Assembly (NCBI GenBank): GCA_003153935.1
Contig: PMCA01000015.1
Span: 1 to 15,038 of the forward strand
DNA from: Elusimicrobiota bacterium
GTDB taxonomy: Bacteria; CAYTYR01; UBA6262
Direction: 5' to 3'
DNA length: 15,038 bases
Shown here piece after piece: positions 1 through 13,639 of this stretch. The notes beneath the pieces are model-generated. The model searched no databases. It was given only the letters and a program-made list of their open reading frames with translations, and was not told the origin of the DNA. Every line of letters begins with the position of its first letter. The stretch's first letter is position 1. Made by a program: the position numbers and the translations under genes.

Positions 1-258
1 AAACCGCACCAGAAAGACACCGACACCCTGCCCGAGTACAAGGTGCTGGACCCGATCCTGAAGGAATACATCGAGGAAGACAAGAGCATGAACAAGATAG
101 TCAAGAAGGGGTTCAGCCAGGAGTTAGTGGATAGGGTGGTCAAGATGGTGGACAATAGCGAGTATAAGCGGAGACAGTCAGCGCCGGGAGTACGGATCAC
201 GCCGAAGTCCTTCGGTAAAGACAGAAGAATGCCGATAACGAATAAGTATAAAGGATAA
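1..258 (+). CDS. nadE: NAD+ synthetase, C-terminal end (partial)
   Basis: The reading frame is open from base 1, so only the last 85 residues are present; the GTG at 43 is internal. The tail reads [20 protein letters not shown], then a GF..ELVDRVV.MVD..EYKRRQ block and a final FGKDRRMPI segment. This pattern is typical of the end of the ATP-pyrophosphatase (synthetase) domain of glutamine-dependent NAD+ synthetase, which amidates nicotinic acid adenine dinucleotide to NAD+ in the cytoplasm. The P-loop (SGGxDS) and any glutaminase domain lie upstream of the window, so whether the enzyme is the glutamine- or the ammonia-dependent type cannot be seen directly; the C-terminal form resembles the large glutamine-dependent type. 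No terminator hairpin separates it from the next gene. Confidence 0.85.
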
Positions 259-261
259 TTA

Positions 262-290
262 GTTGATAGTTGATTGTTGATAGTTGATAG
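262..290 (+). repeat. Four tandem 7-bp repeats
   Basis: Just after the nadE stop codon the unit GTTGATA occurs at 262-268, 276-282 and 283-289, with a GTTGATT variant at 269-275. The tract is AT-rich and lies 48 bases upstream of the sigma-factor start. It could be a slippage-prone spacer or a regulator-binding array; nothing else indicates a function. Confidence 0.9.
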
Positions 291-337
291 AAAAACAAAA
301 GGGAAAGCAAAGACACAAAGTAAGAGAGGGTATATAT

Positions 338-856
338 ATGATGAAATTTGAAGATTTGATCAAGAAACTTTCACCAACCATAAAGAGAATAACCTATAAA
401 TTGAACGGCAGATACCGGGTGCTGGACCATGAGGACCTGTACCAGGAAGCGCTGCTGCACCTGTGGCAGGATTTCTGCGATGGGAAGCTGAACGAGAAGA
501 CGGACAGCTATATACTGCAGGGCTGCTACTTCTACCTGAAGAACTATCTGCGTAATGTGGAGGATAACAACTTCTTTGCCAGCCTGGATGAGGTGATTGG
601 CGAGGATGATACCACCTTGGGTGAAATGATAGAAGATAACAAGCCGAATGAACTGGAAACCCTGGAAACGAAGCTGGAGGCGCAGGCGGTTTTGGATTGC
701 TGCCTGAATGAACGGGAAACGACCGTTCTGAAGCTGTATGCCGACGGGTTTACCGCCCGTGAAGTGGGAGATATAGTCGGCGTGTCGCACGTAACTGTGG
801 TTAAGACCATTGAGAGGATCAGGGAAAAAGCGAAGAAACTGATCCAGCATATTTAG
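338..856 (+). CDS. Small sigma-70 family RNA polymerase sigma factor
   Basis: A 172-residue protein is read from ATG 338, preceded by AGAGGG at 325-330 with 7-nt spacing; the TTG at 284 is open in the same frame but lacks a ribosome site. Residues 29-46 (LDHEDLYQEALLHLWQDF) match sigma region 2 core-binding helices, and residues 57-72 (SYILQGCYFYLKNYLR) continue region 2. An acidic linker spans about 84-112. Residues 122-165 form region 4, with the helix-turn-helix LNERE..VL.LYADGFTAREVGDIVGVS at 123-150 and its recognition helix after that. This two-domain layout is that of small alternative sigma factors or sigma-like regulators. No anti-sigma gene is adjacent, so the regulon is unknown. 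It seems to be a single-gene unit closed by the terminator at 871-916. Confidence 0.8.
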   Translation: MMKFEDLIKKLSPTIKRITYKLNGRYRVLDHEDLYQEALLHLWQDFCDGKLNEKTDSYILQGCYFYLKNYLRNVEDNNFFASLDEVIGEDDTTLGEMIEDNKPNELETLETKLEAQAVLDCCLNERETTVLKLYADGFTAREVGDIVGVSHVTVVKTIERIREKAKKLIQHI

Positions 857-6005: not shown

Positions 6006-7973
6006 ATGGAAGAGAAAAGACCTGACCCGAATGAACTGCTGGCCCAGATAAAACAGGAAGAGGACGAAATCGCCATTCTGAAGAAGAAAGGCGACCGGGG
6101 CAAGCTTAAGATATTCCTGGGATATTGCGCGGGCGTAGGCAAGACCTACCGCATGTTGCAGGATGCCGCGGCCAATAAAAATAGCGGGGTGGATGTAGTT
6201 GTCGCCCTGGTGGAAACGCATAAGCGGTCGGAAACAGAGGCTATGGTTTCGGGCTTGGAGATAATCCCCAGGAAAACCATTGAGTATTCGGGCCTGGCCC
6301 TGGAAGAAATGGACACCGACGCGGTATTGAAAAGAAAACCGGTCCTGGCGCTGGTGGACGAACTGGCGCACAGCAATGTACCGGGCTCCAGGCACCTCAA
6401 GCGCTATCAGGACGTAGAGGAACTGCTGAACGCCGGTATAGATGTTTTCACTACTTTAAATATTCAGCATCTGGAAAGCATGGTGGATATTGTCCAGCAG
6501 ATAACCGGCGTAAAAGTCGCGGAAACCGTGCCTGATCGGGTGATGGCCCTGGCGGATGAGGTGGAACTGGTTGACCTGACGCAGGAAAAGCTATTGGAGC
6601 GGCTGCGGGAAGGCAAAGTTTATATCCCGAAAAAGGCCGAGCAGGCCATGCACCGGTTCTTTAAGATAGGCAATTTACTCGCCTTACGCGAACTCTCCCT
6701 GCATTACACCGCCCGGCAGGTGGACGAAGACGTGCGCGAACACATGCAGAAGCACGCCATTCCCGGTCCCTGGCCGGTCGGCTCCAGGGTATTGGTCAGC
6801 ATAAGTTCCAGCCCCTCTTCGGAAAGGTTATTGCGCTTTACTCACCGGATGGCGCAGGAACTGGACGCGGAATGGTTCGCAGCTTATGTGTCCTCACCCC
6901 AGCAGGTGGACCTGGGTGAGAAAGCCCGGCTCCAGCTTGATAAAAACATACGCCTGGCGGAAGAGCTGGGAGCACGGGTTGTCCAACTTAAAGGGGTGGC
7001 AGTAGCCGATGAGATCCTGAATTTCGCCCGGTCCAAGAATGTAACCCTGATCGTCGCAGGTCCATCGCGCCGGTCTAAGGCGGAGCAAATACTAAAAGGT
7101 TCTATTATTGACGAACTGGTTAGTAAGAGCGGCTCAATCAGCGTTTTGATCACCGGTGACGAAGGACCGGAAAAAGCCTCTGCGGGAAAATTCTTCCAGA
7201 TAAGGAAGCGCGGTTACAAGGCCTACCTCGCAAGCTTACTGGCGATAGCGGCAACCGCCTGGATAGGGTGGCTGCTGCGTGACAGCATTGAACCCGTCAA
7301 TATTGGTATGCTGCTCCTTTTACCGGCCATCGGCAGCGGCGTCCTCTGGGGAGTACGGGTAGGATTGTTTGCTTCCATTCTGGGTGTGTGCGTCTTCGAT
7401 TTCTTTTTTATCCCGCCGTATTTCACTATGCGGGTCTCCGACTTACGGTACCTGCCCAGTTTTATTGTGTTCATTTTCGTCTCGGTGTTTATCAGTTTTC
7501 TGGCTAAATCAGTCAAGCAGGAAGCGGAACGCTCCCGGCACCGCGAGCGATTCGTTTATTCGCTGTATTCTTTTAGCCGTGATATCATAGCCGCGGAAGA
7601 CCTGGCGGCTACCTTAAGCCAGGCGACCAGGCATACGGCCGAAGCTTTTGAGAGTCATGTAGGCATATTTTTGCCGGATAATTCCAAGAAGTTGCATCTA
7701 CGCTCGAGGAACAATGAAGATATTGTCGTCAGTGAAACCGAACTGGCGGTAGCGACCTGGGTTTACAAGAACGGCATACCCGCCGGTCGCGGGACCAATA
7801 CCCTGGCTTCCAGTCCCTGGTACTTTTTGCCACTGAAAATACAGGAAAAAACCATAGGAGCCATTGGTTTAAGGTCTAAGGACCCCGCTAAGTTTTTAAC
7901 TCAGGAGCAGGATCAGTTGTTCAAGTCTATGGCCAGTATTATTGCCTTAGCGGTAGTGAACGCCAAGCCGTGA
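6006..7973 (+). CDS. kdpD: KdpD-like sensor without the histidine kinase domain
   Basis: The 655-residue protein compares with about 890 for E. coli KdpD. The N-terminal KdpD domain (about 30-240) carries Walker A GYCAGVGKT (39-47) and the LVDELAHSNVPGSRH block (116-130). A universal-stress-protein-like domain spans about 260-385. A DUF4118-type membrane region lies at about 405-500 with several hydrophobic segments, and a GAF-like domain follows at about 525-653. The protein ends there (AVVNAKP), so the HisKA and HATPase domains are missing. The 149 bases after it encode no kinase fragment in any frame, so this is not a simple frameshift. No kdpE is nearby. Without a kinase it cannot phosphorylate a response regulator; it may act as a ligand-binding regulator. 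Residues 265-272 (SISSSPSS) and FAAY at 291-294 resemble, with imperfect spacing, the c-di-AMP-binding motif described in Staphylococcus aureus KdpD. Confidence 0.9.
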   Translation: MEEKRPDPNELLAQIKQEEDEIAILKKKGDRGKLKIFLGYCAGVGKTYRMLQDAAANKNSGVDVVVALVETHKRSETEAMVSGLEIIPRKTIEYSGLALEEMDTDAVLKRKPVLALVDELAHSNVPGSRHLKRYQDVEELLNAGIDVFTTLNIQHLESMVDIVQQITGVKVAETVPDRVMALADEVELVDLTQEKLLERLREGKVYIPKKAEQAMHRFFKIGNLLALRELSLHYTARQVDEDVREHMQKHAIPGPWPVGSRVLVSISSSPSSERLLRFTHRMAQELDAEWFAAYVSSPQQVDLGEKARLQLDKNIRLAEELGARVVQLKGVAVADEILNFARSKNVTLIVAGPSRRSKAEQILKGSIIDELVSKSGSISVLITGDEGPEKASAGKFFQIRKRGYKAYLASLLAIAATAWIGWLLRDSIEPVNIGMLLLLPAIGSGVLWGVRVGLFASILGVCVFDFFFIPPYFTMRVSDLRYLPSFIVFIFVSVFISFLAKSVKQEAERSRHRERFVYSLYSFSRDIIAAEDLAATLSQATRHTAEAFESHVGIFLPDNSKKLHLRSRNNEDIVVSETELAVATWVYKNGIPAGRGTNTLASSPWYFLPLKIQEKTIGAIGLRSKDPAKFLTQEQDQLFKSMASIIALAVVNAKP

Positions 7974-7984
7974 TCCGCAAAATA

Positions 7985-8016
7985 AGTTACCAAAACACCT
8001 CCTAATTTACTTGTAT
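7985..8016 (+). promoter_or_regulatory. Conserved leader element, copy A (before amtB-1)
   Basis: AGTTACCAA (7985-7993), 15 nt, then ACTTGTAT (8009-8016). The same two blocks, 15 nt apart, occur at 9851-9882 and 12010-12041. A conserved ACAAAGACG follows at 8068-8076, directly in front of the terminator hairpin. It may be a promoter-operator or the 5' part of a structured leader RNA; I cannot assign it to a known family. Confidence 0.6.
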
Positions 8017-8049
8017 GTTTACACAACTGAATAAACATATGAGTAAATT
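8004..8049 (+). other. 18-bp hairpin in leader A
   Basis: Bases 8004-8021 pair with 8032-8049 along all 18 positions, including two adjacent G-U pairs, with a 10-nt loop. The conserved ACTTGTAT block lies inside the 5' arm. Copies B and C have different, shorter hairpins at the matching place, so the hairpin is a variable part of the leader. Confidence 0.7.
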
Positions 8050-8073
8050 GTAGTTTCAAAATGGACAACAAAG

Positions 8074-8103
8074 ACGTTTCTCCAAAAGAGAAACGTTTTT
8101 TTT
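8074..8103 (+). terminator. Terminator between kdpD and amtB-1 (likely attenuator)
   Basis: ACGTTTCTC (8074-8082) pairs perfectly with GAGAAACGT (8088-8096) across a CAAAA loop, and seven more T residues follow (8097-8103). Only 19 bases separate it from amtB-1, which are largely taken up by the ribosome site. Any amtB-1 promoter must therefore lie upstream, and the terminator must be passed for amtB-1 to be expressed. It also ends the kdp transcript. Confidence 0.9.
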
Positions 8104-8122
8104 CTATTTTAAGGGGGTAATT

Positions 8123-9364
8123 ATGCCGCAGATTAATTCCGGAGATACAGCCTGGATACTGATGTCAACAGCGTTAGTTATGCTGATGACCATACCCGGG
8201 CTGGCTTTTTTTTATGGCGGGCTGGTACGCCGGAAAAATGTCCTGGCTACCATTATGCAATCCTTCGCTGTCTTGTGCGTGATTAGCCTACAGTGGATAC
8301 TGTGGGGGTATAGCCTATCGTTTGGACCGGATAAAGGACACATTATCGGGAGTTTGGCCTGGTTCGGTTTGAAAGGGGTAAGTATCGTTCCCAATCCGGA
8401 TTACGCGCCTACTATTCCACATTCGTTGTTTATGGTCTACCAGATGATGTTCGCGGTTATCACTCCCGGGTTGATCACCGGGGCTTTCGCGGAAAGAATG
8501 AAATTTTCATCTTTCCTGATATTTTCCTTGTTATGGGCGACTTTTGTCTATGACCCGATCTGCCACTGGATCTGGGGATCAGGCGGCTGGCTGCGCAATA
8601 TGGGCGCGCTGGATTTTGCCGGCGGTGCGGTAGTGCATATCTCCTCCGGTATCGCGGCTTTGGTTTGTGCGCTGGTATTGGGCAAGAGGCGCGGGTATGG
8701 AACCGATCCGATGCCGCCGCATAACCTGGCCTTTACGGTCCTGGGCGCGGCTTTATTGTGGTTCGGCTGGTTCGGCTTCAACGCTGGCAGTGCATTGGCG
8801 GCGAACGGCCTGGCGGTTAATGCGTTCATTACTACTAACACCGCGGCTGCGGCTGCGGCGCTAACCTGGATGTTCGTGGAGTGGAAGATGGCCGGTAAGC
8901 CGACCATGCTGGGCGGAGCCACTGGAGCTGTGGCCGGATTGGCAACGATTACGCCGGCTTCTGGTTTCGTTTCCCCGATATCAGCGATTGTGATAGGGAT
9001 CGCGGCGGCAGGTGTATGTTACCTGGCAGTAGCTGTGGTGAAAGCCAAACTGGCGTATGATGACAGCTTGGACGCGTTCGGCGTACACGGTATAGGCGGG
9101 ATAGTTGGTGTTTTAGCGACCGGATTGTTTGCCTCTAAATTGATCAACCCGGCCGGTAATGATGGATTGTTTTTCGGTAACCTGGCTCAGCTGAAGACGC
9201 AGGCGATCGTAGTAGGGGTAACGGTCCTCTATTCAGCGGCTGTGACCTTTGTATTATTAAAACTGGTGGAAGTGTTTGTGGGGTTGAAGGTGACGGAAGA
9301 GGAAGAAGTGATGGGGCTGGATATTACGCAGCATGAAGAGAGCGCGTACACACTATTGGATTAA
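8123..9364 (+). CDS. amtB: Ammonium transporter AmtB (copy 1)
   Basis: The 413-residue protein starts at ATG 8123 behind AAGGGGG (8111-8117). It is an Amt/Rh-family channel with about 11 membrane helices, carrying NH4+/NH3 across the inner membrane. Signature segments are visible: FYGGLVRRKN (30-39), TGAFAERMKF (119-128, periplasmic gate), CHWIWGSGGWLRNMGALDFAGG (147-168), and the pore twin histidines H172 (VVHISSG) and H322 (FGVHGIGG). The usual cytoplasmic tail EEEEVMGLDITQHEESAY, where GlnK docks in known Amt proteins, is intact. Unlike copy 2 it has no signal peptide and begins directly at helix 1. A glnK follows after 146 bases. Expression is probably controlled by the leader and terminator at 7985-8103. 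Confidence 0.96.
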   Translation: MPQINSGDTAWILMSTALVMLMTIPGLAFFYGGLVRRKNVLATIMQSFAVLCVISLQWILWGYSLSFGPDKGHIIGSLAWFGLKGVSIVPNPDYAPTIPHSLFMVYQMMFAVITPGLITGAFAERMKFSSFLIFSLLWATFVYDPICHWIWGSGGWLRNMGALDFAGGAVVHISSGIAALVCALVLGKRRGYGTDPMPPHNLAFTVLGAALLWFGWFGFNAGSALAANGLAVNAFITTNTAAAAAALTWMFVEWKMAGKPTMLGGATGAVAGLATITPASGFVSPISAIVIGIAAAGVCYLAVAVVKAKLAYDDSLDAFGVHGIGGIVGVLATGLFASKLINPAGNDGLFFGNLAQLKTQAIVVGVTVLYSAAVTFVLLKLVEVFVGLKVTEEEEVMGLDITQHEESAYTLLD

Positions 9365-9375
9365 TCATAAGCGTA

Positions 9376-9460
9376 GTGTTTCGGATTAATTTCTTGGACA
9401 TTATACTTTTCGAAATAAGCTTCAAGAGCCTTGGTTCGAAAAGTAAATGTCTCGGCGAAA
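9376..9460 (+). other. Repeated, structured spacer between amtB-1 and glnK-1
   Basis: The first 26 bases (9376-9401) recur with 24 identities at 15013-15038, just after amtB-2. The region folds well: 9404-9414 pairs with 9435-9445 (11 bp), extended by GACAT (9397-9401) with ATGTC (9447-9451). Inside, AAGCT pairs with AGCCTT with one bulged C. TTTCG (9379-9383) can close the structure with CGAAA (9456-9460). No T-run follows, so it is not an obvious terminator. It may be a processing, stability or regulatory RNA element. Confidence 0.6.
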
Positions 9461-9510
9461 CCAATCACTCAACACCCGCTCATTTAATATAACGAAAGCA
9501 GGTATAAAAA

Positions 9511-9852
9511 ATGAAATTAGTGATTGCTGTAATTCAGCCGCATAAACTGGAAGCGGTGTTAAAAGAGCTGGATAAGGCAGAGATACATTTAAAGACGGTT
9601 AGCAATGTCCTCGGTTGCGGGCGGCAGAAGGGTAAGACGGAAATATACCGCGGGCATAAGGAGACCGGCAACCTGATCAAGAAGGTGCGCCTGGAGATAG
9701 CGGTTAACGAGCAGTTCGTGGAACCCACTATTAAAGCTATTGTCGCTGGAGCCCAGACCAAACAAATAGGCGATGGTAAAATATTTGTTATGAGTCTGGA
9801 TGATTGCGTCAGGATACGGACAGGCGAGCGCGGCGGAGTGGCCATAGGGTAG
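9511..9852 (+). CDS. glnK: PII nitrogen regulatory protein (copy 1, GlnK-like)
   Basis: The 113-residue protein is the typical PII size. PII trimers sense ATP/ADP and 2-oxoglutarate and block AmtB when nitrogen is plentiful. Ligand residues known from E. coli PII are present: Q39 in GRQKG, K58, the GDGKIFV loop and the RIRTGERGG pair R101/R103. In the T-loop Y46 (EIYRG) is kept, but position 51, the uridylylated tyrosine of E. coli, is glutamate (GHKETGN). Control by GlnD-type uridylylation at Y51 is thus not expected. The gene lies downstream of amtB-1, the classic amtB-glnK pair in reverse order to most proteobacteria. The start is preceded by a weak GCAGGT. The stop codon overlaps leader copy B. 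Confidence 0.93.
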
Positions 9853-9882
9853 TTACCAAAACAGATAGTTATGTACTTGTAT
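9851..9882 (+). promoter_or_regulatory. Conserved leader element, copy B (before permease-PII)
   Basis: AGTTACCAA (9851-9859), 15 nt, then ACTTGTAT (9875-9882), the same as copies A and C. It overlaps the glnK-1 stop codon. A small TGTGT-AAT-ACACA hairpin (9884-9896) follows, then ACAAAGGCG at 9911-9919 running into the first terminator. Confidence 0.6.
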
Positions 9883-9916
9883 ATGTGTAATACACAGTGA
9901 TGTGATGCGTACAAAG

Positions 9917-9947
9917 GCGATCTGAGAAAGTATCAGACCGCTTTTTT
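9917..9947 (+). terminator. First terminator in leader B
   Basis: GCGATCTGA (9917-9925) pairs with TCAGACCGC (9933-9941), with one A-C mismatch and a 7-nt loop, followed by six T residues (9942-9947). It would end the glnK-1 transcript or attenuate a leader started at element B. Confidence 0.75.
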
Positions 9948-9956
9948 ATTTACCAG

Positions 9957-9976
9957 GAATACTCAGTAGAGTATTC
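9957..9976 (+). other. Perfect 8-bp hairpin between two terminators
   Basis: GAATACTC (9957-9964) and GAGTATTC (9969-9976) are perfect complements around an AGTA loop. No T-run follows. It could be an operator dyad or a structural part of leader B. Confidence 0.6.
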
Positions 9977-9989
9977 AGAACTTAGACGG

Positions 9990-10034
9990 AGGCGTCTTTT
10001 TTACCCAGAGATGGGTTAGAAAAGGCGCCTTTTT
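9990..10034 (+). terminator. Second terminator in leader B
   Basis: AGGCGTCTTTT (9990-10000) pairs with AAAAGGCGCCT (10020-10030) over 11 positions with one G-U. It encloses an ACCCA-GAGA-TGGGT hairpin (10003-10016). Five T residues end at 10034. Only 36 bases remain before the permease start, with no promoter visible, so read-through must be conditional. Confidence 0.85.
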
Positions 10035-10070
10035 GCTTTAAGAAAGAAAATCATACAAAAGGAGGATATC

Positions 10071-11951
10071 ATGGCTCAGAACAAAATGGCTTCACCTTTA
10101 GTAAAACCGACCCTGGGCTTGTTGGGAGCTACAATGAACGCGATGGCATTGATTGCGCCGGGGGCGTTCTTGTGGATCACCTTCCAGTTGCAGGCAGCGG
10201 CCACGGCTCCGAATGGAGCTTCAGTGGCGGGAGATATGTGGTTCGGGATAGTCGTGGCTTTAGTAGTGGCTTTCCTGACCGCTTTCTCTTACGCGGAATT
10301 GGCTAAGATATACCCGGAGGCGGGTTTTGCCAGCTGCGTTTACTTCGCGGAGAAAGCTTTCCTGGATCGTCCAGGGGCTCCTAAGAAAAATACACCTAAC
10401 TCCCTGGCGCGTATGGCTAAATTGGCGACCGGATGGGCGGCGCACCTGTTCTACTGGGTTTATCCGGGTATCATGGTGGCAATGATGGCCATACTGGTTG
10501 GATACATATATAACCAGTTCACAGGCCAGACCTTTTCTAACATGACCTTAACCGTTATCGGCGGGATATTTGCGGTCGTGACCGGATATGTCGCCTTCAG
10601 GGGAGTCACCGGGTCAACCAAGACCTCGATCTGGATCAATGTGATCCAGTTGGTCACCCTGGTCATTTTCAGCGGCCTGGCGATCTGGTACCGGTTCAGC
10701 AACCCGCAAGGTGCGACCATGTGGTCTTTCAGCGGTGCCTGGGATGTAGTCAAACCGCATACGCTTAACGGCGTGCTGATACAATCGACACTGGCTATAT
10801 TGATATTGGTCGGTTTCGAGAGCTGCACCGCTTTGAGCGCGGAGACGAAAGAGCCGGAGAAAACTATTCCCAAGGCGATCATATTGTCGCTGGTGATACA
10901 GGGATTGCTGGCTTACCTGATAGAGTATTTCGCGGCCGGTTATATGGTCAGCGAGAAACTGGCTTCAGGCACCGGCGCGACAACGGTGAGCGGAATGGCC
11001 GCGGCGGCTGTCTCAGGGGCGCCGATCGGGGACTTAGCTAAGCTCCTGGGCGATCACCTGCTGCCTGGGATCGGATTTGGTTTGATGATCAGCATGGCTG
11101 TTACAGTTGCCATCGCCATTGTTGGTACCACCCTAAGCTGCATGAACACCGCCATCCGGGTCACCTGCGGCATGGCCGCGGACCGGGAACTGCCGGATAT
11201 CATGGGCTTCATGCATGACCGGTTCAGCACCCCGCACGTCGCTCTGTGGGCGCTGATAATCGTTACTACGGTGATAGCGGCGGTGGGAGTGAGGTCGGTC
11301 GTGGGATTGACCGGTATCACCCTGGCCTCGAACTTCGGCACCTTTGTTCTTTACGGATTGACCTGCGTCTGGACCATAGTCGCGTTCCGCAACCGGGAAG
11401 ATTTCAATATCGTTAAACATGGAATAGTCCCGGGGCTGGGCGTCATCACCAATGTGGTCATGGCTGCTGCCATCATCTACCTGTATTCAACGGGTAATGC
11501 CGACGCGAAAAAAGAAGCGGACATATGCTTCCTGATAGCCGGAGCATGGGCGTTGATAAGCTTCGCTTACGTGGCGGTTACCAATATACATAAGTCGTAC
11601 CGGGTCAAGATGGTCTCAGCTACTATCCGTCCGGAGCAGTTGTATGATGTCATGGAGGCTTTGAAAGATGAAGATATGATACTGGGCATGACGGTGACCG
11701 ACGTGCGTGGTTTTGGTCGGCAAAAAGGGCATGACACGACCGACGGTACAGTCAAACATTCAGATAAGATAGTGCTGCTGCCCAAGGTCAGGATCGAGGT
11801 CCTGGTCAAGGATTGGGACGTGCAGAAGATGATGGAAATCCTGCGCGACGCGGTTTACACCGGCCAGGTAGGCGACGGCAAGATCTTCGTTCTGGACGCG
11901 AAGGACGCCATGCGCATCCGTACCGGTGAGAAGGGTGTTTACGCCCTCTAG
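10071..11951 (+). CDS. APC-family amino-acid permease fused to a C-terminal PII domain
   Basis: The 626-residue protein starts at ATG 10071 behind GGAGG (10061-10065). Residues 1 to about 505 are an APC-superfamily permease. It begins with the glycine-rich helix GLLGATMNAMALIAPGAF, carries the FAEK-type loop, and has the APC hallmark GFESCTALSAETKEPEKTIP with about 12 hydrophobic segments. Residues 513 to 626 form a complete PII domain. The ligand residues TVTDV, GFGRQKGH, LLPK, GDGKIFV and RIRTGEKG are all retained, so ATP and 2-oxoglutarate binding looks possible. The T-loop (DTTDGTVKHSDKIV) is two residues longer than in GlnB and contains no tyrosine, so it cannot be uridylylated there. 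The likely role is amino-acid uptake or exchange gated by its own nitrogen/energy sensor. The substrate is unknown. The junction is in frame within a single open reading frame. Confidence 0.93.
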   Translation: MAQNKMASPLVKPTLGLLGATMNAMALIAPGAFLWITFQLQAAATAPNGASVAGDMWFGIVVALVVAFLTAFSYAELAKIYPEAGFASCVYFAEKAFLDRPGAPKKNTPNSLARMAKLATGWAAHLFYWVYPGIMVAMMAILVGYIYNQFTGQTFSNMTLTVIGGIFAVVTGYVAFRGVTGSTKTSIWINVIQLVTLVIFSGLAIWYRFSNPQGATMWSFSGAWDVVKPHTLNGVLIQSTLAILILVGFESCTALSAETKEPEKTIPKAIILSLVIQGLLAYLIEYFAAGYMVSEKLASGTGATTVSGMAAAAVSGAPIGDLAKLLGDHLLPGIGFGLMISMAVTVAIAIVGTTLSCMNTAIRVTCGMAADRELPDIMGFMHDRFSTPHVALWALIIVTTVIAAVGVRSVVGLTGITLASNFGTFVLYGLTCVWTIVAFRNREDFNIVKHGIVPGLGVITNVVMAAAIIYLYSTGNADAKKEADICFLIAGAWALISFAYVAVTNIHKSYRVKMVSATIRPEQLYDVMEALKDEDMILGMTVTDVRGFGRQKGHDTTDGTVKHSDKIVLLPKVRIEVLVKDWDVQKMMEILRDAVYTGQVGDGKIFVLDAKDAMRIRTGEKGVYAL

Positions 11952-11965
11952 ATAGTTACACCCCG

Positions 11966-11995
11966 GCTTCTGCCTGGCCACAGCCAGGCAGAAGC
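11966..11995 (+). other. Perfect 13-bp hairpin after the permease-PII gene
   Basis: GCTTCTGCCTGGC (11966-11978) pairs perfectly with 11983-11995 around a CACA loop. No T-run follows, so it is not a typical intrinsic terminator. It may stabilise the mRNA 3' end or be a small palindromic repeat. AGTTAC occurs on both sides (11954-11959 and 12010-12015). Confidence 0.75.
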
Positions 11996-12009
11996 TCTCC
12001 CTCGTGACA

Positions 12010-12041
12010 AGTTACCAAGAGGACGGAATTTATACTTGTAT
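12010..12041 (+). promoter_or_regulatory. Conserved leader element, copy C (before barrel-glnK operon)
   Basis: AGTTACCAA (12010-12018), 15 nt, then ACTTGTAT (12034-12041), with the same spacing as copies A and B. A CCCCA-GTGT-TGGGG hairpin (12059-12072) follows, then ACAAAGGCG (12078-12086) leading into the first terminator. Confidence 0.6.
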
Positions 12042-12083
12042 ATCTGTAAGACGAATTACCCCAGTGTTGGGGAGCAAACAAAG

Positions 12084-12118
12084 GCGTTCTGACAGATAAG
12101 TCGGAGCGCTATTTTTTT
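12084..12118 (+). terminator. First terminator in leader C
   Basis: GCGTTCTGAC (12084-12093) pairs at all ten positions with GTCGGAGCGC (12100-12109), two of them G-U, around AGATAA. Seven T residues follow (12112-12118). The layout matches the first terminator of leader B. Confidence 0.85.
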
Positions 12119-12128
12119 AGAGACATAG

Positions 12129-12178
12129 ACGTCTTTTTAAGGGTCCAGGAATGGACAATTAAGAAGACGTTTTTTTTG
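12129..12178 (+). terminator. Second terminator in leader C
   Basis: ACGTCTTTTTAA (12129-12140) pairs with TTAAGAAGACGT (12159-12170) over 12 positions with one G-U. It encloses GTCCA-GGAA-TGGAC (12143-12156). A long T-run follows (12170-12177). Its design and position match the second terminator of leader B. Confidence 0.9.
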
Positions 12179-12250: not shown

Positions 12251-13006
12251 ATGAGCAAAGAGAAATTGAAAAAGTTAGCTGCGATCTACGTGCTGGTGAT
12301 CTTGTTGGTAATGTTTTTCGGATTGAAGGCGCATGCCACGCCGTCCACCCAGATCTGGAACCCGTCTACGGATATCCAGGCGGTAAAGACCTGGCACCTG
12401 GGCATTGACAATTATTTCTCGGTGAAAGACAACTTGGACCATCCCTACGCTTTCCCGACCGACGTGGGCTTGACCTATGGGCTATTCAAGAACCTGGAAG
12501 TCGGCGTTGATACCTTGTATCCCTCTGAACATCCCTTGTATTTCAATGCCAAGTATGGTTTGCCGGAGGGTGATATGATGCCGGCCATCGCCGTAGGTAT
12601 ATTCAATGTCGGCACTAAAAGTGACGTGACTAATTACGACATTTGGTACGGTGTAGTGGCCAAAACTTTCAAACCCATCGGCCGGCTATCTTTAGGCTAT
12701 TACGTCGGCAATGACAAGCTGTTGCTGGATGAGACCGGAGCCAAAGCCAATACCGGATTGATCGCCAGCTGGGACAAGGCCATTACGGATAAGATCTGGA
12801 CCTCAGTGGATTACGCTTCCGGTGATAGCTTCTACGGCTCTTTGAGCCTGGGCGGTTCTTACGCATTTGCTCCTAATGTCAGTATTATTTTCGCTTACGT
12901 GATCTATAACAATAAGAAAGAGATCGTCACGGACGGAGTTCCGACCGGCTCGTTCATGAACAATAAGAATGATACCGCTACCACACAGTTAGATATTAAT
13001 TTCTAA
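12251..13006 (+). CDS. Predicted outer-membrane beta-barrel (porin-like) protein
   Basis: The 251-residue protein starts at ATG 12251 behind AAAGGAGAAGG (12237-12247); the frame is open back to 12176, but that part lies in the terminator. A signal peptide is clear: basic MSKEKLKK, a hydrophobic core AAIYVLVILLVMFFGL, and a cleavage site AHA at about residue 33. The mature part is rich in alternating aromatic/polar strands (such as VGLTYGLFKNLEVGVDTLY and LSLGYYVGNDKLLL) and ends in TTQLDINF. A terminal phenylalanine is the usual sorting signal of outer-membrane barrels. The length would suit a barrel of 10-12 strands. I do not recognise the exact family. It is the first gene of a unit with glnK-2 (11-base gap) and leader C, so a nitrogen-related solute such as ammonium or amino acids is a plausible substrate by context only. 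Confidence 0.75.
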   Translation: MSKEKLKKLAAIYVLVILLVMFFGLKAHATPSTQIWNPSTDIQAVKTWHLGIDNYFSVKDNLDHPYAFPTDVGLTYGLFKNLEVGVDTLYPSEHPLYFNAKYGLPEGDMMPAIAVGIFNVGTKSDVTNYDIWYGVVAKTFKPIGRLSLGYYVGNDKLLLDETGAKANTGLIASWDKAITDKIWTSVDYASGDSFYGSLSLGGSYAFAPNVSIIFAYVIYNNKKEIVTDGVPTGSFMNNKNDTATTQLDINF

Positions 13007-13017
13007 GGAGGACTACC

Positions 13018-13356
13018 ATGAAAAAAATAGAAGCCATAATCAGACCCAACAAACTTGATTCAGTGCGCCAGGCCCTGATCGCCGCGGGCACGACCGGACT
13101 AATGGTCACTAAAATAGAGGGCCACGGCAGCCAAAAAGGATTGACTAAGCACTTCCGGGGCAAGGACTATACAGTGGACCTTCTGCCCAAAAGCAAGATC
13201 GAAGTCATTGTTAAGGATAATGAGGTAGATAATATTGTGGAAGTGATCTCAACCACTGCCAGGACGGGAGAGATAGGCGACGGCAAGATCTTTGTCTATC
13301 CGGCTGAGAATTCTATTCGCATTCGTACTGGCGAAAAAGGTGAAGGTGTTATATAA
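13018..13356 (+). CDS. glnK: PII nitrogen regulatory protein (copy 2, GlnB/GlnK-like)
   Basis: The 112-residue PII protein follows a strong AAGGAGG site (13005-13011) that overlaps the end of the barrel gene. It aligns with E. coli GlnB without gaps through the T-loop. Y51, the uridylylation target, is kept (GKDYTVDLLPK), Y46 is phenylalanine (KHFRG), and R38 is serine (GSQKG instead of GRQKG). Q39, K58, GDGKIFV and RIRTGEKG are intact, so ATP and 2-oxoglutarate binding is likely. Of the three PII domains in this window it is the only one with Y51. Its neighbours are an outer-membrane protein upstream and a coupled HTH protein downstream, so its partner may be something other than AmtB, although amtB-2 follows. 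Confidence 0.94.
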   Translation: MKKIEAIIRPNKLDSVRQALIAAGTTGLMVTKIEGHGSQKGLTKHFRGKDYTVDLLPKSKIEVIVKDNEVDNIVEVISTTARTGEIGDGKIFVYPAENSIRIRTGEKGEGVI

Positions 13357-13532
13357 TGTTAGATAATGACTTGATCGGTAAAATAAGGATGTATAAAATG
13401 GAGAAGGGATATACTTTGCATGAAATGTCAAAAATTATCGATATCCCTATCTCCACGCTGGAACGGTGGTTTAAAACCGGCCGCATAAATAAACTGTACG
13501 CGCAGGTGGTAAAGGAAAAATTAGGATTATAG
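13356..13532 (+). CDS. Small helix-turn-helix protein coupled to glnK-2
   Basis: The 58-residue ORF starts at an ATG sharing one base with the glnK-2 stop (TAATG), with GAAGGTG (13342-13348) 7 nt upstream. The sequence begins MLDNDLIGKIRMYKMEKGYT and continues through LHEMSKIIDIPISTLERWFK (residues 21-40) to a basic end. The pattern KGYTLHEMSKIIDIPISTLERWF resembles the HTH of XRE- or transposase-type DNA-binding domains, with an initial helix, a turn near I28-P31 and a recognition helix STLERWF. It is all HTH and has no ligand domain. The overlap with glnK-2 suggests co-expression and possibly a shared regulatory role, perhaps as a repressor of nearby leaders or promoters. It is too short to assign to a named family. 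Confidence 0.7.
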   Translation: MLDNDLIGKIRMYKMEKGYTLHEMSKIIDIPISTLERWFKTGRINKLYAQVVKEKLGL

Positions 13533-13639
13533 GGTTAGAGAAAAATTTTTACTTTTACAGATAGACATTTGGCACGTCCGTGTTGTACTCATTAGGGTAA
13601 GCATAAGAACAATACAATCAAATGAAAGGGGACAGAACC
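13533..13639 (+). other. Gap before amtB-2 without clear terminator
   Basis: This 107-base AT-rich gap has no hairpin/T-run terminator and no copy of the leader element, so amtB-2 may be read from the upstream operon. TTGGCA (13569-13574) could be a -35 box, but the sequence 17-18 nt on (TTAGGG) is a poor -10. AAAGGGG at 13625-13631 is the amtB-2 ribosome site. Confidence 0.5.

Follow-up and report, generated by a model that had tools for sequence, protein, structure and literature searches.

What controls the three nitrogen-transport units in this stretch of DNA, each of which is preceded by the same spaced repeat? The stretch analysed (the window, 15,038 nt) is part of a 36.9-kb contig in a genome of 1.75 Mb, and the motif copies, hairpins, terminators and genes of the proposed system lie on its plus strand. 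Exact copies of AGTTACCAA-N15-ACTTGTAT occur at 7985, 9851 and 12010 (copy A, 7985–8016; copy B, 9851–9882, overlapping the stop codon of a P-II gene at 9511–9852; copy C, 12010–12041), as the initial annotation had described, including the interval of exactly 15 nt. Allowing up to three mismatches still recovered these three window matches alone, compared with a mean of 0.06 in shuffled sequence (n = 200), and no shuffle reached three. At position 24958 of the same contig, ~10 kb past the window end, there is a fourth copy that has one mismatch, and a type III glutamine synthetase gene is located downstream of it.

The initial annotation had offered a protein-controlled attenuator or a promoter-operator as explanations. 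Both apply, in series: the repeat is two stacked control devices and not one RNA element, and the attenuator part, rather than founding a new class, has ANTAR features. It is quite probable that each copy consists of a promoter read by an ECF-like sigma factor followed by an ANTAR RNA antiterminator, a reading that draws on comparison of sequences: the motif, its gene context, its association with the sigma gene, the hexaloop signature, and the overlap of the P2 hairpin with the terminator.

A motif with promoter-like spacing

A promoter is the best reading of AGTTACCAA-N15-ACTTGTAT. A position profile of 148 sites, which together with the exact match and the shuffle test defines copy A (B and C being defined by the latter two), starts with an A-rich tract (–9 to –4, ahead of the motif) and continues with GTTACC, a spacer rich in T at its end, and TACTTRTAT. 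GTTACC and TACTT were near-invariant; the sites were picked by pattern, so conservation of the core is by construction, whereas that of the A-rich and T-rich tracts is not. The only enriched spacing was GTTACCA-16-ACTTRTA, with 33 matches compared to 0–3 at any other spacing. A general sigma-70 promoter was considered and rejected, as a loose pattern gave only four exact matches in the genome, three of them in the window. One further motif match (L047; G090:C112:13396) lies upstream of a TrkA-like gene with repeated GGCCTGTTTACT on its flanks, and may reflect either a further role of the promoter or chance.

An ECF-like sigma factor gene accompanies the motif

The proposed reader of the motif is a 171-aa ECF-like sigma factor encoded at 341–856, identified from its TIGR02937 match, its helices, its PDB matches and its co-occurrence with the motif. 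The TIGR02937 (sigma70-ECF superfamily) model scored 64.2 bits on this ORF (cut-off 42.9), and all NCBIfam subfamily models scored far under their cut-offs. The predicted structure contains two helical domains, sigma2 and sigma4 (helices 3–76 and 104–170), which are better defined than their mutual arrangement (mean pLDDT 77.9, pTM 0.43). Sigma factors, including many of the ECF type, are its best structural matches in the PDB, and the protein lies inside the sigma70 family with sigma2 and sigma4 as its only domains, as in ECF factors. The gene comes after the 3' end of nadE, likewise in G001–G003; nadE directly 5' of the sigma gene (window 1–856; L039, L041, L043) is kept in the Elusimicrobia family.

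Scanning named genomes with the sigma protein identified clear relatives in Elusimicrobia, Omnitrophota and Firestonebacteria (19 in all), and further matches on contigs binned under other names. In most of the 19 the sigma gene adjoins the motif and nitrogen genes. Within 235 kb around the sigma relatives there were 14 motif matches at up to two mismatches and none of the reversed pattern, compared with no motif match in 474 kb flanking 28 generic ECF genes. Genome-wide, the motif was present in 22 of the 22 sigma-bearing genomes tested, and in 18 genomes with generic ECF genes only, matches were no commoner than those of a control pattern.

Among 285 Omnitrophota genomes, the sigma gene was cleanly present (82, one a fragment) or absent (203). 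The motif was found in 73 of the 82 and in 21 of the 203 (Fisher P ~4e-38, a value that ignores kinship), and the reversed control was found in 38 of the 203 genomes without the gene, which is more often than the motif itself. Some of the motif matches in genomes lacking the sigma gene look genuine, and their source may be incomplete genomes. At the search stringency, nine sigma-bearing Omnitrophota genomes had no motif match. In the phylum of G129, four genomes carry a strong sigma match, and three of these likewise lack the motif; groups were small in the surveys of the phyla around G090, G129 and G133. ANTAR domains were encoded in 78 of the 82 genomes with the sigma gene compared to 133 of the 203 without it. 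Because few of these 133 ANTAR-bearing genomes carry the motif (19), the motif follows the sigma gene and not ANTAR.

The one variable base of the –10 block changes with the sigma protein. Sites with G (ACTTGTAT) go with Q at sigma residue 60 (49 of 51), and sites with A (ACTTATAT) go with K or R (18 of 20). We do not read this as many independent events, since the sigma tree shows essentially one switch; the association therefore counts as support, consistent with direct recognition, and not as proof. We infer that the sigma factor of the window recognises the motif. On the same tree, the Elusimicrobia sigma sequences nest among those of Omnitrophota, which may reflect horizontal transfer.

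Genes downstream of the motif

Further copies near nitrogen genes in related genomes, for which the initial annotation had suggested a search, were found. The motif lies upstream of amtB, glnK, glnA and related genes in Elusimicrobia, Omnitrophota, Firestonebacteria and other phyla; relatives of the same family have it ahead of amtB, nifH, glnK and glutamine synthetase genes, and distant genomes, G090 being an example, have it ahead of glnA, amtB and the barrel gene. We took 171 sites from loci of genomes that bear the sigma gene and of a few related ones; at 129 of them, the first gene recognised downstream encoded AmtB, glutamine synthetase, P-II, permease-PII, a GltB-linked protein or NifH. 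The individual counts were 49 for glutamine synthetase, 46 for AmtB, 12 for P-II, 7 for permease-PII, 11 for a small Fis-type gene beside gltB, and 2 each for NifH and glutamine amidotransferase; the remaining first genes encoded the barrel protein (18) or others (2), or were unrecognised (22). These are raw counts without a background rate, and the genes were recognised by similarity to references from these same loci.

In the window, copy A is followed by an AmtB ammonium transporter gene (8123–9364, PF00909), and copy B by a gene for an amino-acid permease fused to a P-II domain (10071–11951; PF13520, PF00543). The permease with this C-terminal P-II domain stands behind the same promoter in Omnitrophota and Firestonebacteria loci too. 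Downstream of copy C are genes for a putative outer-membrane barrel protein without a Pfam family (12251–13006) and a GlnK-type P-II protein (13018–13356, PF00543). Secreted barrel-like proteins of this kind (also L039, 505–1221; L045, 4474–5172; L048, 2296–3042) are kept alongside amtB or glnK and the motif in several phyla, and are perhaps nitrogen-related outer-membrane channels. A short ORF for a small helix-turn-helix-like protein (13360–13533) lies between glnK and a second amtB.

The window has further features. A c-di-AMP riboswitch (970–1140; RF00379, 73.4 bits) lies upstream of a PTS EIIA-like gene and kdp potassium-transport genes, and a KdpD-like protein is encoded at 6006–7973, with Pfam matches to KdpD, Usp, DUF4118 and GAF and none to a histidine-kinase domain.

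Hexaloop hairpins and terminators in the leaders

Past the motif, each copy carries the block ACAAAGRCG and an intrinsic terminator, and the distances from the start of ACTTGTAT to the start of ACAAAG (59, 36 and 44) agree with those first reported. In most copies, the hexaloop signature identifies the hairpin and the ACAAAGRCG block together as the known dual-hexaloop antiterminator of the ANTAR type. Such RNAs are marked by hexaloops with A at position 1 and G at position 4, and act through a P2 hairpin overlapping the terminator (Ramesh et al. 2012, PMC3369931). The architecture here is a P1 hairpin with an A1/G4 loop, then P2 (AAC-[AAAGRC]-GTT), with the 3' arm of P2 starting the terminator. 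It is a known type of leader, met here in phyla new to it.

Hairpins were counted by loop bases 1 and 4 where the loop had 6 nt and the stem four or more Watson-Crick pairs, and the counts were compared with dinucleotide shuffles. In 149 leaders, ANNGNN loops numbered 125 (6.6 expected) and GNNGNN loops 53 (4.6 expected); other classes reached ~1–3 times expectation, the largest being TNNANN (20 compared to 8.0) and TNNTNN (22 compared to 7.3). The anchor C-ANNGRC-G for P2 was found in 96 leaders, and a tandem of P1 (at least four pairs) and anchored P2 in 75 of the 149. Among leaders with both an anchored P2 and a terminator, 88 had a terminator 5' arm that began no more than three bases from the start of the P2 loop. 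A second P2/terminator unit occurred in 37 of 101 leaders, B and C included, compared to 2.3 expected. Several leaders have double, both-side changes in P1 pairs, a covariation count that is partly circular as the aligned rows were selected for having the stem; the inner pairs of P2 are nearly fixed, so their covariation says little. Across the set these marks of ANTAR target RNAs were found: A1/G4 hexaloops, tandem hairpins of at least 3 bp, a terminator over P2, and an ANTAR gene. Two GAF-ANTAR proteins are encoded in G000, the genome of the window, and presumably bind these leaders, and GAF-ANTAR genes adjoin the sigma gene at several loci.

The tandem is intact in copy C, has a degenerate P2 in B, and lacks P1 in A. 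Copy C contains P1 at 12059–12072 (CCCC[AGTGTT]GGGG), P2 at 12077–12088 (AAC[AAAGGC]GTT) and a first terminator at 12083–12110 whose 5' arm overlaps P2, followed by a second P2-type hairpin at 12119–12136 (AGAGAC[ATAGAC]GTCTTT) and a second terminator at 12126–12176 (RNA fold). In copy B, P1 at 9893–9904 (CAC[AGTGAT]GTG) is followed by a P2 that retains the closing pair only (9910–9921, TAC[AAAGGC]GAT), and then by a first terminator at 9913–9946, a second P2-type hairpin at 9984–9997 (AGAC[GGAGGC]GTCT) and a second terminator at 9988–10034 (both terminators from RNA fold). Copy A has a P2-type hairpin at 8067–8078 (AAC[AAAGAC]GTT) and a terminator at 8070–8100, with no clear P1. A covariance model trained with this family left out found copy C (E 4e-5), the fourth copy (0.04) and copy B (0.2), and did not find copy A, indicating a canonical leader in C and the fourth copy, a partly degenerate one in B and an incomplete one in A. 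The useful hairpins in B and C are the hexaloops at 9893–9904 and 12059–12072 and not the stems first reported. The 18-bp inverted repeat reported in A includes the ACTTGTAT block, and we rejected it as a conserved core since most of it is missing from the orthologue in G002, where 10 outer pairs are left.

Proposed mechanism and alternative explanations

We propose that RNA polymerase with the ECF-like sigma factor (341–856) would read GTTACCA as –35 and ACTTGTAT as –10, 16 bases apart, and that the transcript would start a few bases past the –10. By default, the leader terminator would fold and transcription would stop before amtB, glnK, glnA and the like. An active GAF-ANTAR protein, as a dimer, would bind the hexaloop hairpins P1 and P2 (A or G at loop position 1, G at position 4); P2 takes bases of the terminator 5' arm, so that the terminator could not form and the genes would be read. 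Some leaders, B and C among them, have a second P2/terminator unit. The signal is presumably nitrogen status.

An alternative for the upstream part is that a DNA-binding protein responsive to nitrogen uses the motif as its operator, or as part of a composite promoter, together with the housekeeping sigma factor; the ECF-like sigma factor would then be a mere neighbour and the leader still an ANTAR target. The sigma gene often lies beside motif-bearing operons, so that linkage alone could give co-occurrence, and conservation of the motif is very high for a promoter. However, the motif is asymmetric, with promoter-like fixed spacing, an A-rich upstream tract and a T-rich spacer; it tracks the sigma gene genome-wide, on other contigs too, and its –10 base shifts with sigma residue 60. 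We consider this explanation improbable.

Much less credible are two accounts that concern the leader. One, put forward in the initial annotation, takes both upstream blocks and everything behind them as a single structured RNA, a new riboswitch-like or attenuator class closed by pairing of CTTGT with ACAAAG. The block order is indeed the same in the three leaders. Yet ACA(A)AG is at least as common at sites with ACTTAT as at those with ACTTGT, so the proposed pairing is uncompensated; the stem of A is not kept in its orthologue, and the upstream blocks are rigidly spaced while everything downstream varies. No riboswitch family matches, and no Rfam family exceeds its gathering score at leaders A, B or C. 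Matches to P11 and mir-368 were sub-threshold, and one to DUF3800-I RNA (RF02969; 9854–9952, 32.1 bits, gathering score 44.2), which shares a hairpin and terminator by a weak covariance-model match and starts inside the promoter motif, was taken as chance. The other account, in which the hairpins simply terminate transcription of the genes upstream and the hexaloops are incidental, fits the position of B and C directly 3' of genes and the missing clear P1 in copy A. It hardly accommodates A1/G4 hexaloops at nearly twentyfold over shuffles with other loop classes far lower, terminators starting at the P2 loop in 88 leaders, or ANTAR genes in 78 of 82 sigma-bearing genomes, and we give both accounts very little weight.

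Returning to the sigma-dependent promoter with an ANTAR antiterminator, we lean towards the view that this coupling is the main control of nitrogen assimilation in several uncultured phyla, where it would replace sigma-54. A sigma/promoter pair dedicated to nitrogen genes appears to be undescribed in the papers searched: among the titles and abstracts listed, with subscription journals mostly outside the search, there was ANTAR work and no paper on this sigma factor or promoter, and a review of ECF factors (PMC8103513) makes no mention of nitrogen. If the proposal is correct, an unrelated ECF-like sigma factor on nitrogen duty in several candidate phyla would be a case of convergent wiring, with a promoter that can be found by eye and a second gate in RNA. 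It would provide a readable regulon for organisms beyond culture, and the system opens a test of nitrogen sensing by GAF-ANTAR proteins.

Comparison with known systems

ANTAR target RNAs are described from the eut leaders of Enterococcus faecalis, nasF of Klebsiella oxytoca and amiE of Pseudomonas aeruginosa, and a nitrogenase regulon with such RNAs is predicted in Pelobacter carbinolicus (PMC3369931). The leaders studied here have in common with them two A1/G4 hexaloop hairpins, a P2 over the terminator, an ANTAR gene and a regulon of nitrogen genes. They differ in often having G at loop position 1, in a linker that ranges from 4 to 55 nt, in a frequent second P2/terminator unit, in the one shared promoter upstream, and in their hosts, which are candidate phyla.

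The window sigma factor resembles ECF (group IV) factors in having sigma2 and sigma4 domains only, in fitting the sigma70-ECF superfamily model, and in its nearest solved structures. It is unlike them in that no anti-sigma gene was recognised alongside, and in its nitrogen-assimilation regulon. ECF promoters usually have AAC in the –35, whereas the –35 here is GTTACC, without an AAC-type box.

Sigma-54 is the textbook example of a sigma factor dedicated to nitrogen control. Its DNA-binding domain (PF04552, rpoN) had no match in G000–G003, which are 91–95% complete drafts, and in a non-random sample rpoN was present in 8 of 30 genomes with the ECF-like sigma gene compared to 8 of 10 without it. 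Like sigma-54 (RpoN) with NtrC, the system proposed here would assign a dedicated sigma factor and promoter class to glnA, glnK-amtB and nif genes, but with an unrelated sigma family and an unrelated promoter.
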